Shown: positions 2,078-55,403 of the stretch, piece by piece | Layout: each line of letters opens with the position of its first letter | Numbering within the stretch: the first letter of the stretch is position 1 | Source of the DNA: Exiguobacterium sp. s122 | GTDB taxonomy: Bacteria > Bacillota > Bacilli > Exiguobacteriales > Exiguobacteriaceae | Reading direction: 5' to 3' | DNA length: 64,000 bases | Assembly: GCF_018618475.1 (NCBI RefSeq) | Contig: NZ_JACSMD010000001.1 | Span: forward strand, 1,736,001-1,800,000 | The notes under the pieces: model-generated | Database searches by the model: none | Told to the model about the DNA's origin: nothing | What the model saw: only the letters and a program-made list of their open reading frames with translations | Position numbers and translations under genes: made by a program

Positions 2078-2875
2078 TTACTTCCCTTCCTCGATAAACG
2101 ATTCACGCACCCGTCTCCAAAATGGGAACGGACGAAAACGTGCGAACGTCACTTTTTCTTTTGCGACCGCACAGCGGAGTGAGCGGACGTTTGACCATGA
2201 CCCCGCCTCTTGATGGTCAAATGCAAGCTCGAATTCCGTTTTCGTATGCGGTTCGATTTTTACTTGATGATGTTTTGGCAATAAGAGCGGCGATCCGATC
2301 GTCCGATAGACGAGGTTGTTAATCGACGCCATCTCAGCCACTTGAATCGCTTCAATCGACGGATGGACAATCGCCCCCCCGAGCGCCTTATTGTAGGCCG
2401 TCGACCCGGACGGGGTCGAGATACAGAGTCCATCCCCGCGGAACGTCTCAAAGTAATCGTCGCGAATCGACAAGTCACAGACGAGCGTACGCTTGTAGTT
2501 TTTAATGGTACATTCGTTCATGGCCAAATGTCGCTCTGTCGTACCGTCCTCATAATCGATGAGCACCTCGACGAGTGGATACGATACCGGCTCGAACGCC
2601 TCACTCGTGATCATATCCGTCAATTCGTCAAGCTCGTCCGGTTGCCAGTCCGCATAAAATCCGAGGTGCCCCGTATGAATCCCGACTAGCAATACGTCGT
2701 TGAGTCGGTCGCTATATTCATGAAACGCTTGAAGCATCGTCCCGTCGCCCCCGACCGATACGACGATGCGCGGCGCGATGGACTCGGTATGGTCAGCTTT
2801 CGTCAACTTGTCCGTCAACTCCCGTGCGATCTCTGCGGACCGCGCATCTCCCCTTGACACAATCGCAAACTGCAT
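2078..2875 (-). CDS. nadK: NAD kinase
   Basis: Phosphorylates NAD to NADP using ATP or polyphosphate; cytoplasmic. The 265-residue protein has the diagnostic GGDGT motif at 42-46, the NE pair at 120-121 and SGSTAY near 156-161, all in the expected order for the short Gram-positive (PpnKA/YjbN) type. It lies 12 bp after relQ and 3 bp before the pseudouridine synthase, so the three are probably co-transcribed. Confidence 0.97.
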   Translation of the reverse strand: MQFAIVSRGDARSAEIARELTDKLTKADHTESIAPRIVVSVGGDGTMLQAFHEYSDRLNDVLLVGIHTGHLGFYADWQPDELDELTDMITSEAFEPVSYPLVEVLIDYEDGTTERHLAMNECTIKNYKRTLVCDLSIRDDYFETFRGDGLCISTPSGSTAYNKALGGAIVHPSIEAIQVAEMASINNLVYRTIGSPLLLPKHHQVKIEPHTKTEFELAFDHQEAGSWSNVRSLRCAVAKEKVTFARFRPFPFWRRVRESFIEEGK

Positions 2876-4261: not shown

Positions 4262-4307
4262 GAGCATACGAACTAAATGATTTTTGTTTACGAGAGGAGG
4301 CGACACA

Positions 4308-5081
4308 ATGGAACTAGAACAATGTAATGAGTCATCCTGTTCACTGGAAGAAACTCCTATTCAAGTCACATATAAACCATTAGAGTTATTCTATTTTGTG
4401 GACATATCGGACCCAGACGGTCTTCACGTGATGACCCTCATTAAAAAGCTCGAGCTCGAATACGGTCATGTAATCCGTTTTCGAATGGTCTCGACTGTTC
4501 CGAGTTGTGTTGGCGGATGTCAAGAAGAGGTTCGCCTTCTCACGATGATTAAGGCTATGGAATTGCAAGGGAAGCGTCATGCAATGCGGTTTTTACGTCA
4601 TCTGCATATCAACGACATCTTTTTGAATAACGAAACGCACGAGACAGAACTTTGGGAAATCGCGCGGTCGTTCAGCTGTTATGGACTCGACCTCGACGAA
4701 TTGGCGGCTGATATTCAGTCCAACCAACTGCTCAGCGCTCTCGCCGTCGATCATCAAATTTTGAAAGATTGGGAGATCGAGTCATTACCAGCCTTGACGT
4801 TCGTTACACGCGACGAGGCGCTCAAAATTGAAGGCGTCTATCCGTATGATGTCTATCAAGCGGTCATGGCCGAGTTACTCGGCTACGTGCCGAATCGAGA
4901 GACGGATTGGACGATCGAGAAAGTGCTCAGCCATTATGATGCGTCAACCATCACCGAGCTCGCGTTCATTCTCGAACTAGACAAGCCGATCATCGAACGA
5001 GAACTGAAAAAACTTTCGCTCCAGCAACGTTGCCGTCCCGTACCAGGATGCAGTGGCGAAGCATGGGCGACAAAAAAATAA
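4308..5081 (+). CDS. spxH: YjbH/SpxH, ClpXP adaptor for Spx degradation
   Basis: DsbA-like thioredoxin-fold protein of 257 residues. In B. subtilis and S. aureus YjbH binds Spx and delivers it to ClpXP. Similarity is clear in PLELFYFVD near residue 27, LQGKRHAMRFLRHL, PALTF and YPYDVYQAVMAELLG. The ATG at 4308 has GAGGAGG 7 bases upstream; the frame also runs back to 4284 but without a site. Oddity: the CPEC motif I recall after the first strand of the B. subtilis protein is replaced by DPDG at the same ungapped position, so the CxxC is missing. A separate CVGGC lies further on. Spx itself is at 12,676. Confidence 0.9.
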   Translation: MELEQCNESSCSLEETPIQVTYKPLELFYFVDISDPDGLHVMTLIKKLELEYGHVIRFRMVSTVPSCVGGCQEEVRLLTMIKAMELQGKRHAMRFLRHLHINDIFLNNETHETELWEIARSFSCYGLDLDELAADIQSNQLLSALAVDHQILKDWEIESLPALTFVTRDEALKIEGVYPYDVYQAVMAELLGYVPNRETDWTIEKVLSHYDASTITELAFILELDKPIIERELKKLSLQQRCRPVPGCSGEAWATKK

Positions 5082-5087
5082 GGATAA

Positions 5088-5224
5088 GAAAAAGCCCACG
5101 GCCGGGGAGCCGTGGGCTTTTGACGTCTCAAGCGGGGACAAGAGACGCCGGGCTCGACCCCCGGGGAAGGGATCGAGATGGGAGAAAGTTTACGGTCAAT
5201 AAAGGGGTTTGTGATTGATTTCAC
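5088..5224 (-). ncRNA. roxS: RoxS/RsaE-family regulatory small RNA
   Basis: Predicted transcript of about 137 nt on the minus strand, read from about 5224 down. It has an unpaired 5' part containing AATCAC, ACCCC and TTTCTCCCAT, resembling the RsaE/RoxS 5' region as I remember it. Three hairpins follow: 5177-5153 (loop TTCCCCG), 5149-5122 (loop with GTCCCC) and the terminator 5121-5090 (loop TCCCCG). The first two stems each contain one G-U pair that becomes an A-C mismatch on the plus strand, which fixes the strand. Location between yjbH and pepF matches the known staphylococcal rsaE locus. RoxS/RsaE uses C-rich loops to base-pair with mRNA Shine-Dalgarno sequences and adjusts central metabolism and redox balance. 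The exact ends are estimates. Confidence 0.85.
5090..5121. terminator. Shared terminator of yjbH (+) and the RoxS-like RNA (-)
   Basis: A perfect 12-bp stem (AAAGCCCACGGC/GCCGTGGGCTTT) with a 6-base loop. The minus-strand exit is TTCTTATCC after the stem T residues; the plus-strand exit has a short T-run. It serves convergent transcripts. Confidence 0.85.
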
Positions 5225-5226
5225 AC
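5209..5226. promoter_or_regulatory. Predicted Rex operator at the RoxS start
   Basis: TTGTGA-N6-TCACAC, one base away from the TTGTGA-N6-TCACAA Rex consensus. It lies at about +1 to +16 of the predicted small RNA, where NADH-sensing Rex would block initiation. Rex control of roxS is established in B. subtilis. Confidence 0.7.
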
Positions 5227-5230
5227 TTAT

Positions 5231-5259
5231 AATATACCGAGCCCTCCGACCGTTGACAA
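5231..5259 (-). promoter_or_regulatory. Predicted sigma-A promoter of the RoxS-like RNA
   Basis: TTGTCA at 5259-5254, a 17-base spacer and TATATT at 5236-5231 on the minus strand. This predicts a start near 5224. Confidence 0.7.
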
Positions 5260-5303
5260 GTCGTTTGTGCATACCGTCACATAATGTTCACGCGTCGTGA
5301 CGA

Positions 5304-7106
5304 TTATGCGAACAGGAGCGACTCCATCTCATCGAGGACGGCTTCGAATTGATCAAGTGCAGCGAGAACCGGCGCTTTCGTCGTCATGTCGACGCCTGCC
5401 GCTTTCAACACTTCAATCGGATAATCACTCGATCCCGCTTTTAAGAAGCGGTCGATATAACGACGGACTGCCGGCTCCCCTTCTTCCATGATTTGTTGCG
5501 ACAACGCGGCCGACGCCGAGATCCCTGTCGCATACTGATAGACGTAATAGTTGTAATAGAAGTGTGGGATACGGGCCCATTCGTAAGCAATCTCTTCATC
5601 GATGACGATGTCTTCTCCGAAGTAACGCTTGTTCAACTCCAAGTATGTTTCATTCAAATATTCAGGCGTGAGCGAGATACCGTCTTGGGCCGCCCGGTGA
5701 ATCATATGTTCGAACTCGGCGAACATCGTCTGCCGGAACAAAGTCCCGCGGAACGTCTCGAGCTGGTTGTTAAGAAGGTAGAGCCGCTCTGCCCGATCCG
5801 TCCGTGTTTTCAACAAATGATCGTTCAAGAGTGCCTCGTTCGTCGTCGATGCCACTTCCGCGACGAAAATCGAATAATCGCCGTACGGATAGGGTTGAGA
5901 AGTGCGTGTATAGTGGCTGTGGACCGAATGGCCGAACTCATGGGCGAGTGTGAACAAGTTGTTGACGTTGTCTTGCCAGTTCATCAAGATGAACGGTTGC
6001 GTATCGTATGCGCCCGACGAATAGGCACCGCTACGTTTCCCGCGCGTCTCACGCACGTCGACCCAACGCGAATCAAGCCCATCTTTCACGATTTGAACGT
6101 ATTCGTCGCCTAGTGGCGCGAGCCCATCGACCATCACTTGCTTCGCTTCTTCGTATGAGATGTTCATCTCGACATCTTGGACGAGCGGTGTATACAAGTC
6201 ATACATATGCAGCTCATCGACGCCGAGCGCACGTTTCCGGAGTGCCACGTAGCGATGGAGCAAATCGAGCCGTTCGTTCACGGCTTCGACGAGACCATCA
6301 TACACCGTCTCAGGGATTGCGTTGTGATGAAGGGCTGCCTGACGGGCACTTTCAAACTTACGTACCGTCGCATAGAAGTTATCTTTTTTCACGCTCCCTG
6401 AGAGCGTTGAGGCGAACGTGTTCAAATATTGTTTGTACGTCCCGTACATCGTTTTGAACGCCGTCTCCCGGACGTCTCGGTTGCTCGACTCGAGGAACGT
6501 GATATAGCGGCCGTGCGTGAGTTCAACCTCTTCCCCTTTTTCGTTCTTCACTTTCGGGAACTTGAGATCGGCGTTGTTTAACATCCCGAACGTCGAACTC
6601 GATTGACCGAGCACGTCCCCAGCTTGGGCGAGAAGCGCTTCTTCCGCCTCTGTCAATACGTGCGGCCGCTCTTTTGATAATTCGTCGAAAGCGTGACGAT
6701 AAACCGTGAGCCCCTCATGTTGCGTCATGAACGATTCGATTCGGCTCTCCTCGATTGCGAGAAGCTCAGGTGTCATGAAAGCAAGTTGCGCCGACACTTG
6801 GGAGGCGAGTGACCCTGCGCGATCATTCAACGCTTGGTAATGACTGTTCGCCGTGTCTTCGTCGTAGCGCATGTGAGCGTATGTATATAGTTTATGAAGT
6901 TGGCGCGACAGTTCGTCACGTAAGCTAAGCGCAGCGAATAACGTATCCGCATCCTCTCCAAGCTTGCCTCTGTATGCCATCAAGTTCGGCACGTTTCCTT
7001 TAAGCGCCTCGAAATCAGCTTCCCATGCTTGATCATCGGCATAGATGGATTCGAGACTCCATGTTTCCTCAATCGGAACTTGTTGTCGTGTAAGTACGTC
7101 TGACAT
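5304..7106 (-). CDS. pepF: Oligoendopeptidase F
   Basis: Zinc metallopeptidase of the M3 family, 600 residues, cleaving short peptides in the cytoplasm. The zinc site HEFGH is near residue 388, with the family context LAHEFGHSVHS and a downstream Glu-rich region. The start has an AAGGAAG ribosome-binding site. It lies 17 bp after coiA, the B. subtilis yjbF-yjbG order. The neighbouring Opp importer would supply substrates, which is an inference. No clear terminator separates it from the RoxS promoter. Confidence 0.95.
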   Translation of the reverse strand: MSDVLTRQQVPIEETWSLESIYADDQAWEADFEALKGNVPNLMAYRGKLGEDADTLFAALSLRDELSRQLHKLYTYAHMRYDEDTANSHYQALNDRAGSLASQVSAQLAFMTPELLAIEESRIESFMTQHEGLTVYRHAFDELSKERPHVLTEAEEALLAQAGDVLGQSSSTFGMLNNADLKFPKVKNEKGEEVELTHGRYITFLESSNRDVRETAFKTMYGTYKQYLNTFASTLSGSVKKDNFYATVRKFESARQAALHHNAIPETVYDGLVEAVNERLDLLHRYVALRKRALGVDELHMYDLYTPLVQDVEMNISYEEAKQVMVDGLAPLGDEYVQIVKDGLDSRWVDVRETRGKRSGAYSSGAYDTQPFILMNWQDNVNNLFTLAHEFGHSVHSHYTRTSQPYPYGDYSIFVAEVASTTNEALLNDHLLKTRTDRAERLYLLNNQLETFRGTLFRQTMFAEFEHMIHRAAQDGISLTPEYLNETYLELNKRYFGEDIVIDEEIAYEWARIPHFYYNYYVYQYATGISASAALSQQIMEEGEPAVRRYIDRFLKAGSSDYPIEVLKAAGVDMTTKAPVLAALDQFEAVLDEMESLLFA

Positions 7107-7123: not shown

Positions 7124-8185
7124 TCAGTTTATATACGATTTCGCCATGAATCGCTGAAACCCTTGAAACATTCGACGATCATACCGAAGGGACACCTCAA
7201 GCGTCTTCGGGACCGACCAGAGCTGCGCTTCAATTGGAACGTCAAAGACGTTCAAGAGTTGTTTCCATTGTACTTCAAAAGCTTGGACAAAGTCGCTCGT
7301 CGCGGTCACTCCGAACTGGCGACACGTCTTCACGACACTCCACGCGATTGAATCCGCTGGATGCATGCGGCGATTTAAATACAACACGACTTGGAAGTCG
7401 AACGGATGAATGTGCAATCCCCAAAGCACTGGCATTGGCAAATAACACATCGTCGGCAACAGTGACGGCAACACCCCGAGCGGATATAAGCGATTCAATA
7501 CGAGACGCCGGTAGTCTTTCGTCGGGTAAGGCGGAGTCATACGGCGACGACGCACGAGTTGACACCATGCATGGGCGTCGAAGCGATAAAACGCCTCGAA
7601 CGGCGAGACCGTCAAGTCGTCCACTTTCACCCATCGGCCTTGCCCGTACCGGAGCGAAATTGGAAAGCCGACAAAACGATACAGTGAACCGTTCATAGGA
7701 ATGAATAAGGCGTGACACCTCGCCAACTCGGCACGCATCCACGGAGTGAACCGTGGTCTAGGATCTGGACGCATCCCACTCGGTAACCAGACGACCGTGA
7801 GACCTAACGCTTCATAATGGGCGGTCCGTTCGTGATACGTCTCCACATCGAGCGGCGAGGCTTGAATCTCGATGACATGTACCGACTCCCCATTTGACGC
7901 GATCAGGTCCGCCCTTCGTCCATCGAACATGACTTCTTGATCGACGTGAAACCCGCGTGTTTGAAGCCATTGCCTGACATCCCATTTATCCCGTTGATGC
8001 CCCGTCGACTCACCGCGTCCACACGCATGGCGATGCGCGAAGTGGAGTCTGCGTTTCATCCCTTCCTTCAAAAGGACCAGCTCATGACAAGCCGGGCATG
8101 AAAAAGGGGCAAACGCCTCGAGTTGCACCCGGTTTAGAGAACGGGTATCGACAACGTCCCCTGTCCGACCGATTGCAAATCGCAT
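7124..8185 (-). CDS. coiA: Competence protein CoiA
   Basis: Protein of 353 residues of the CoiA family, needed for recombination of transforming DNA in competent streptococci and Bacillus. The N-terminal part contains a possible metal-binding segment (CPACH, HFAHRHAC near residues 34-56). A nuclease-like core around residues 75-115 (RRADLIA followed by VIEIQAS) resembles restriction-endonuclease folds with D...ExQ. Cys and His residues are well preserved. It sits 12 bp after the cardiolipin synthase and 17 bp before pepF, so the three may be one transcript. Presence of coiA suggests, but does not prove, natural competence. Confidence 0.88.
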   Translation of the reverse strand: MRFAIGRTGDVVDTRSLNRVQLEAFAPFSCPACHELVLLKEGMKRRLHFAHRHACGRGESTGHQRDKWDVRQWLQTRGFHVDQEVMFDGRRADLIASNGESVHVIEIQASPLDVETYHERTAHYEALGLTVVWLPSGMRPDPRPRFTPWMRAELARCHALFIPMNGSLYRFVGFPISLRYGQGRWVKVDDLTVSPFEAFYRFDAHAWCQLVRRRRMTPPYPTKDYRRLVLNRLYPLGVLPSLLPTMCYLPMPVLWGLHIHPFDFQVVLYLNRRMHPADSIAWSVVKTCRQFGVTATSDFVQAFEVQWKQLLNVFDVPIEAQLWSVPKTLEVSLRYDRRMFQGFQRFMAKSYIN

Positions 8186-20808: not shown

Positions 20809-22081
<1,273 letters not shown>

Positions 22082-45856: not shown

Positions 45857-46060
45857 AAAAAATCGATGGGGCCCGGAGTGCCGTGACGATGCCCTGCTTT
45901 TGAACCTGCTTAAGCAGGTGGGTGACCTAGCGTCCCCTTCACAAGTCCTCCTGCACGTGATGAGGCAGTTGATCTGGATGGCAGTTCGGTCTCCCGTATT
46001 CAAAGTGTTGGCTCAAAATAACGAAGGCGGCTCTCGTACACCTCAGGTATCCCATCTGTT
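45857..46060 (-). ncRNA. ssrS: 6S RNA (ssrS/bsrA type)
   Basis: About 204 nt on the minus strand. The 5' end GATGGGATACCTGAGGTG pairs with 3' CACTCCGGGCCCCATC as the closing stem. The internal string TGAGCCAACACTTTGAATAC matches the conserved E. coli 6S segment TGAGCCGATATTTCATAC in position and type, and a CCTGC-TTAA-GCAGG hairpin sits on the 3' side. 6S RNA binds housekeeping RNA polymerase holoenzyme as a promoter mimic. A consensus promoter precedes it, and bsrA lies in the same tcdA-aspS region of B. subtilis. Confidence 0.9.
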
Positions 46061-55142: not shown

Positions 55143-55403
55143 ACAAAAAGGCCCTCGTCCGCAAAGGGACGAGAGCCTGTCTAGGTTTCCCGTGGTACCA
55201 CCCTCGTTGCAGAGCCAATGCTTGAAACTCTGCCACTCGAAATCGGTTAACGCCCGATGAAACGGCTTCCCCTACTATCAGTTCAAGGAAGCACCTCCAA
55301 AGTGTCGTTCGGGTCATCATCCAGACGATGCTTTCAGCCGCGGCATCGATCTCTTTACTGGTGGGGTGACCGTACTCTTCTTTATCAAAGGTGTTAGGTT
55401 ATA
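55143..55403 (-). promoter_or_regulatory. T-box riboswitch of hisS-aspS
   Basis: Leader of about 260 bases on the minus strand with AGTA on the 5' side of Stem I, AGAGAT, and the T-box AACGAGGGTGGTACCACGG near 55210-55192. The terminator GGCTCTCGTCC/GGACGAGGGCC with T-run ends near 55145. At the specifier position the sequence is GACAC (55306-55302), which contains GAC (Asp) and CAC (His) overlapping by one base. By comparison with the trpS and alaS leaders, GAC followed by ACTT is the better-aligned triplet. Confidence 0.9.

Follow-up and report, generated by a model that had tools for sequence, protein, structure and literature searches.

The unit studied here lies in a 64,000-nucleotide stretch of the Exiguobacterium sp. 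s122 genome (hereafter, the window), where a minus-strand transcription unit predicted to encode a small RNA of ~137 nt (5088–5224) is found between yjbH and pepF. The upstream neighbour, pepF (5304–7106, minus strand), matches the NCBIfam equivalog for oligoendopeptidase F and has the same orientation as the unit. The convergent neighbour (4284–5081, plus strand; TTG opens the frame at 4284 and an ATG stands at 4308) encodes a Thioredoxin_5 domain and had no NCBIfam match; we take it to be yjbH from its place. The promoter (5231–5259, minus strand) reads TTGTCA-17-TATATT, with the −35 box at 5259–5254 and the −10 box at 5236–5231, and the predicted +1 is near 5224. At the other end, a terminator hairpin (5090–5121, minus strand), whose CUCCCCGG loop occurs in 19 of 19 Exiguobacterium genomes, is followed by a U-rich tail; read on the plus strand, the same hairpin lies directly past the yjbH stop codon. 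This reading of promoter and terminator, together with the minimum free energy (MFE) fold, confirmed the arrangement given in a preliminary description of this DNA, namely a promoter, an open 5' part, two hairpins and a terminator on the minus strand. The locus was found in all 19 genomes of the genus that we searched.

Two elements suggest how the promoter may be controlled. A Rex-type box, TGTGAAATCAATCACA, covers the +1 (5209–5226, minus strand); it has two mismatches to TTGTGAANNNNTTCACAA, which we take to be the Rex consensus, and is the best such match of the window. Its half-sites occur in other Bacilli too and persist in the sister genus, where the middle of the box differs, a pattern that fits an operator. 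In B. subtilis, the roxS promoter is bound by Rex, which represses roxS from a site immediately past the promoter (PMC5419742; this and the other two RoxS papers cited here, PMC4409812 and PMC8216469, are quoted from the part of their text that was available), and the predicted site in Exiguobacterium has this same position by sequence. The genome-wide number of Rex-type matches was not significant by itself (169 a strand at up to three mismatches, with 137 in the reversed control). With two mismatches at most, there were at least 20 boxes, the one of the small RNA not being among the matches listed; we read 11 of the 20 listed, and five of them precede an adhE-like gene (which encodes an aldehyde dehydrogenase domain and was named by eye), ldh (two boxes), a formate/nitrite transporter gene and rex. 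The genes adhE, ldh and rex belong to the classical Rex regulon. A single rex gene was found in the genome by domain search, and ldh is included in the Rex regulon in the available text of PMC5419742.

Upstream, a direct repeat, CGTGAACAT/TGTGACGGT/TGCACAAAC, with copies ~10–11 bp apart (5263–5292, minus strand; −68 to −39), is conserved in the 19 genomes and constitutes a candidate site for ResD or a similar regulator; by eye, a similar block is present in the sister genus and at RoxS loci of other Bacilli. The genome also has a res cluster, with ResB (Pfam), a cytochrome c assembly protein, an OmpR-type response regulator and a histidine kinase encoded side by side, from whose order we presume the names resA, C, D and E. 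In B. subtilis, a conserved 8-nt ResD-type sequence is found around −65 and ResD activates roxS (PMC4409812, available text). By analogy, we infer that the Exiguobacterium RNA is under Rex/ResD control. The motif TGTGA-N6-TCACA also fits the Crp/Fnr half-site pattern, and the box over the +1 might instead be a Fnr/Crp-type site through which another regulator would respond to oxygen. We consider this rather unlikely, since it is Rex that binds here in B. subtilis (PMC5419742, available text) and since the similar boxes of the genome precede the adhE-like, ldh and rex genes.

The sequence from 5224 to 5088 folds with an MFE of −58.4 kcal/mol (z −7.05), which none of 200 shuffled sequences equalled. 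In this fold, the 5' part is open except for a 4-bp hairpin at its extreme end and is followed by hairpin 1 (5153–5177, minus strand), hairpin 2 (5122–5149, minus strand) and the terminator. As the preliminary description had noticed, each of the three loops of the window RNA carries CCCC, with an unpaired probability of 1.0. The loop of hairpin 2, GUCCCCGC, is invariant in 19 of 19 genomes, and that of hairpin 1, UCCCC in the window genome, keeps its CCCC in 12 of 19 and lacks it in the other seven. The leftward, minus-strand reading, proposed earlier on the basis of G-U pairs, was borne out: we read two such pairs off the MFE fold in each hairpin, one of those of hairpin 2 sitting in an inner GU/GC step, and the RNAalifold energy over the 19 sequences was −41.3 for the minus strand versus −33.1 for its complement. 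We rejected a plus-strand reading on account of this weaker consensus fold.

Covariation was evaluated on 28 pairs in the 19 distinct genus sequences, with 500 shuffles, five measures and a control made of slid versions of the structure. Paired cells amounted to 98.9%, and both sides had changed in 11 of the 28 pairs (62 such cells). The covariation score was 0.342 versus 0.180 in shuffles and at most 0.080 in slid versions, a control biased toward the structure because the latter was derived from the same 19 sequences. Four of the five measures were reached by none of the 500 shuffles; the fifth, which counts further pair types, was not above them (494 of 500 as high). The conserved structure exceeds chance. 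Both stems covary and the hairpins drift with compensation across the genus, the check that had been suggested for them. Invariant columns numbered 5 of 30 in hairpin 1 and 12 of 29 in hairpin 2, and 44 of 45 in columns 1–45 of the RNA; the whole segment from the −10 box through the second C-rich region (CRR2) is almost invariant in the 19 genomes.

These patterns bear on the idea that the hairpins merely belong to pepF as its 3' untranslated region and terminator, the latter shared with the convergent yjbH, without any separate RNA. The unit does follow pepF immediately and in the same orientation, and its last hairpin comes shortly after the yjbH stop codon when the other strand is read. However, an untranslated region accounts poorly for a promoter and first 45 nt that are nearly invariant in 19 genomes next to hairpins that drift with compensation, and both the place and the 5' sequence match a gene known to have its own transcript in two other genera (PMC4409812, available text). 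We therefore hold this reading to be very unlikely.

To place the RNA in a family we relied on RF01820, the Rfam model of RsaE, whose curated gathering score is 79 bits. The model aligned to the window RNA from its first to its last position (1–112), starting at the predicted +1, with 36.2 bits (5089–5224), and none of the 19 genus genomes passed the gathering score. Within the window genome this was the sole match below E = 1 (E 3.3e-4; the next at E 5.85). Across the 19 genomes, E at the locus ranged from 3.2e-4 to 0.75, and the locus was the best match in 18, with one genome (G002) having a better-scoring place elsewhere. A covariance-model score below threshold, named in the preliminary description as an observation that would speak against the family assignment, is thus what we obtained, 36.2 versus 79 bits. 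We did not take it as decisive because of the absence of any other match below E = 1 and because threshold-passing RoxS loci lie between the same two genes. In a search of 398 Bacilli genomes, 82 passed the cut-off and 131 matched at E ≤ 0.1, 13 of them from the genus; among the 30 best RF01820 matches, which we used as reference loci, pepF and yjbH hits both flank 25 and at least one of them flanks all 30.

The reciprocal search used a covariance model for which the 19 genus sequences were the sole input. It scored these same sequences at 159.5–176.2 bits, as it must, and nothing outside the genus above 38.8 bits in the 398 Bacilli genomes. Its best place nevertheless coincided with the RF01820 place in 72 of the 82 non-genus genomes matched; two of the remaining 10 were matched away from an existing RF01820 place, and eight had no RF01820 match on record. 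Five matches to the genus model (R1) were seen in one genome (G322, L031), the best of them away from its RsaE place; these matches are possibly AT-rich look-alikes. The 5' sequence is colinear with that of the RoxS family through GUGAAAU, AUCACAAAC, CCCCUUU, UUGACCGU and UUUCUCCCAUC. Synteny, colinear sequence, the promoter elements in common and the reciprocal model matches therefore lend good support to the orthology to RoxS/RsaE put forward in the preliminary description. As the assignment rests on place, sequence and these matches rather than on the Rfam cut-off, we file the RNA as a divergent orthologue that stays outside RF01820 in its curated form.

A different C-rich small RNA, FsrA- or RsaD-like, might have replaced roxS and come to resemble it by convergence on CCCC/UCUCCC. 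Other Firmicute small RNAs also have C-rich regions, the RF01820 score is under the cut-off, and hairpins 1 and 2 are without counterpart in the RsaE model, all of which would suit such a replacement. Yet a replacement would not be expected to keep the colinear 5' sequence, the box over the +1 and the reciprocal matches, and no second roxS was found, RF01820 having no other match below E = 5 in the genome; we find this explanation scarcely credible. Finally, we rejected a small protein encoded by the 112-amino-acid open frame that crosses the unit (4934–5272, minus strand), present in the list of open reading frames, because it has no NCBIfam match, insertions and deletions inside it in relatives have lengths not divisible by three, and the changes follow base pairing.

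Several other observations came from these searches. In a genome of another Bacilli family (G372, contig C14), two RsaE-model matches stand in tandem at 86115–86234 and 86595–86716, ~480 bases apart (53.6 and 52.7 bits), a possible roxS duplication. The window itself also carries a 6S RNA (45866–46052, minus strand; 77.5 bits) and two T-box leaders (20823–21032, plus strand, 132.6 bits; 55162–55397, minus strand, 125.7 bits), all over their Rfam cut-offs, whereas matches to other families (Atu_C9, sX13, ylbH and others) were all under theirs and were discarded, that of Atu_C9 being limited to the terminator region. In the full-text literature, whose coverage takes in few subscription papers, we found no paper combining Exiguobacterium with RsaE or RoxS, and RoxS is not named in the available part of a genome survey predicting Exiguobacterium small RNAs in bulk.

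The other genus of the family has a short form of the gene. A DNA search matched none of its 19 genomes, RF01820 matched one of the 19 at E ≤ 0.1 under stricter filters, and the genus model matched none of the 19 in the 398-genome search; given seven of the 19 directly, it produced a weak match at the place in three (30.7, 20.2 and 19.7 bits). Reading of the pepF-yjbH gap revealed the short form in 19 of 19. It comprises a −10 box, half-sites TGTGAAG-N3-RTCACA at the +1 whose first base varies somewhat, the elements UCCCC and UUUUCCCCC, and a plain terminator. It shares with the Exiguobacterium RNA the same place, the box half-sites, the first C-rich region (CRR1) and CRR2, but retains a small 5' hairpin in the four sequences that we folded and lacks the extra hairpins and the C-rich terminator loop.

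The 5' segment is the most conserved part of the Exiguobacterium RNA, and the architecture of this RNA departs from that of the family: it has lost the usual first hairpin and gained two new ones, to which we ascribe its RF01820 score under the cut-off. CRR1 (CCCCUUUAUUGACCG, from 5207) and CRR2 (UUUCUCCC, 5187–5180) form an open pairing region (5180–5207, minus strand) that is unpaired in the fold and invariant in the 19 genomes except for one base. In classical RoxS folds, a 5' arm ACAAAC pairs with a GUUUG-side sequence and thereby holds CRR1; in the RF01820 alignment, the window RNA has an 8-nt deletion at one arm of this hairpin, which leaves the first two C-rich regions open. The 5' hairpin holding CRR1, a trait of RoxS/RsaE, was accordingly not found in the genus RNA. 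Inspection by eye suggests that CRR1 might yet be enclosed by a 5-bp stem, UCAAU/AUUGA, which has low weight in the ensemble calculation. According to thermodynamic predictions, the mean unpaired probability of the CRR1 10-mer is 0.88 (0.82–0.95) in the 19 genus RNAs versus 0.59 (0.43–0.67) in 30 classical RNAs (25 of them distinct), and 0.63 (0.56–0.76) in the 19 sister RNAs (16 distinct), where an 11-nt stretch was used. For CRR2, the predicted means are 0.97, 0.46 and 0.64, respectively, and for both regions the genus values do not overlap with those of the 30 classical RNAs. The preliminary description had proposed the three C-rich loops as pairing sites. This holds in part: the loop of hairpin 1 varies among genomes as described above, and the almost invariant C-rich sequence is that of the open CRR1 and CRR2. 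Neither the loss of the family 5' hairpin nor the Rex-type box was part of that earlier account.

Compared with RoxS of B. subtilis (PMC4409812, PMC5419742 and PMC8216469, available text), the Exiguobacterium RNA has the same gene neighbourhood, a box over the +1, an upstream ResD-type region, colinear CRR1 and CRR2 sequences, a terminator end and a similar size. Classical RoxS, however, has CRR1 in a long 5' hairpin and an open CRR3 as main pairing site, whereas in Exiguobacterium the hairpin arm is deleted, CRR1 and CRR2 are open, hairpin 2 is new and CRR3 is replaced by a hairpin with loop UCCCC in 12 of 19 genomes. With RsaE of Staphylococcus (RF01820) it shares family and the match to the full model, although the window match spans 136 nt versus 96–123 nt for matches over the cut-off. 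For ppnKB, the key site of B. subtilis RoxS is CRR3. RNase Y cleaves this RNA near nt 20, and the processed form, represented in the tests by an RNA that begins at nt 20, makes more extensive hybrids; it is proposed in the same work to be required for sucCD (PMC4409812, available text). The Exiguobacterium RNA may resemble this opened, RNase Y-processed state from birth, which would allow pairing without prior trimming.

We looked for candidate targets by screening the 5' part of the RNA against 54 window genes defined by a simple open-reading-frame rule, with target accessibility ignored. The strongest predicted pairings involve the start regions of coiA (competence protein; 7124–8185, minus strand, ~3 kb away) and nadK (NAD kinase; 2078–2875, minus strand, ~2.3 kb away, pairing with CRR1/CRR2), with −32.2 and −32.1, respectively, against a mean of −17.7 (sd 4.6). 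Both were chosen as the best two of 54, so that the following tests in relatives are not independent. Among nine neighbourhood genes in the 19 genus genomes, nadK and coiA were the top two in 17 (in the exceptions, L185 and L187, sdr enters the top two), with −24.5 to −32.1 for nadK and −21.9 to −38.8 for coiA, the seven other genes averaging −13.2 to −21.0. The 19-genome mean was equalled by none of 300 shuffled RNAs for coiA, and the nadK pairing by 22 of 300; when the nadK segment was shuffled in five genomes, 13, 17, 115, 17 and 30 of 500 shuffles did as well. In the sister genus, with its own RNA, the two genes were the top two in just 4 of 19 genomes; nadK ranked first to third in all 19 and coiA first to seventh in the 17 genomes in which it was found. 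The predicted pairing stretch of nadK falls within codons 2–5, and no other four-codon window of the gene is as well conserved. This is weak evidence, as relQ is likewise best conserved at its start and gene starts often are. In three genomes (L150, L151 and L152; G018, G005 and G006) the nadK frame extends to 486 amino acids with one TAG inside; our guess is an upstream relA-type gene running in frame into nadK with one stop between.

We discarded sucC, a known target of RoxS, as a conserved target, its pairing being weak in the 19 genomes (−14.8 to −16.8 kcal/mol, for a segment from −45 to +15; the nadK and coiA segments were longer, −30 to +48). In a domain search, all 19 genomes had the NAD kinase gene on the yjbH side, and 14 had a second match. 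In the window genome, the one of the 14 in which we read it, this second match lies in a 332-amino-acid frame that looks diacylglycerol-kinase-like by eye, and we rejected it as a counterpart of ppnKB, the B. subtilis target. Genome-wide, complements of CRR1 with up to three mismatches numbered 45 + 52 versus 27 + 13 for the reversed control; 11 of the 14 two-mismatch complements read lie inside longer open frames, three of these near a possible start codon. Nothing relevant linking RoxS with coiA was found in the full-text literature. Predicted pairing is thus strong for coiA, moderate for nadK and weak for sucC, and of the genes tested, coiA and nadK come first as predicted targets.

Taken as a whole, we estimate at roughly 87% the probability that this unit is the Exiguobacterium roxS/rsaE gene, encoding a Rex/ResD-controlled antisense regulator of ribosome-binding sites that would be 'born open'. 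If B. subtilis and S. aureus are a guide, the Rex-type box over the start and the ResD-type repeat would cause the RNA to be made at high NADH or when respiration is impaired. It would then act in trans, its C-rich segments pairing with G-rich Shine-Dalgarno regions of metabolic mRNAs, and this pairing would block translation or alter mRNA decay. With the classical CRR1 hairpin gone, CRR1 and CRR2 would work as one open, nearly invariant pairing strand, and the lineage-specific hairpins would display extra CCCC loops. A more detailed version, in which CRR1-CRR2 is permanently exposed, CRR3 has been moved or lost, CCCC-loop hairpins have been added and the targets include nadK and coiA, both neighbours of the small RNA gene, is tentative, and we would rather bet against it than for it; if true, NADP supply and DNA uptake would both come under redox control.

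What is new here is a structural variant of a known small RNA. RsaE/RoxS is described as the only known trans-acting small RNA besides 6S RNA common to S. aureus and B. subtilis (PMC4409812, available text), and the present orthologue adds a lineage in which none of the 19 genus genomes passes the Rfam cut-off. The comparison indicates which parts selection has kept, namely the box over the +1 and the CRR1-CRR2 strand, and which have been free to change: the number of hairpins, CRR3 and the terminator loop. The Exiguobacterium RNA would offer a natural experiment on whether opening by RNase Y is needed for RoxS function.
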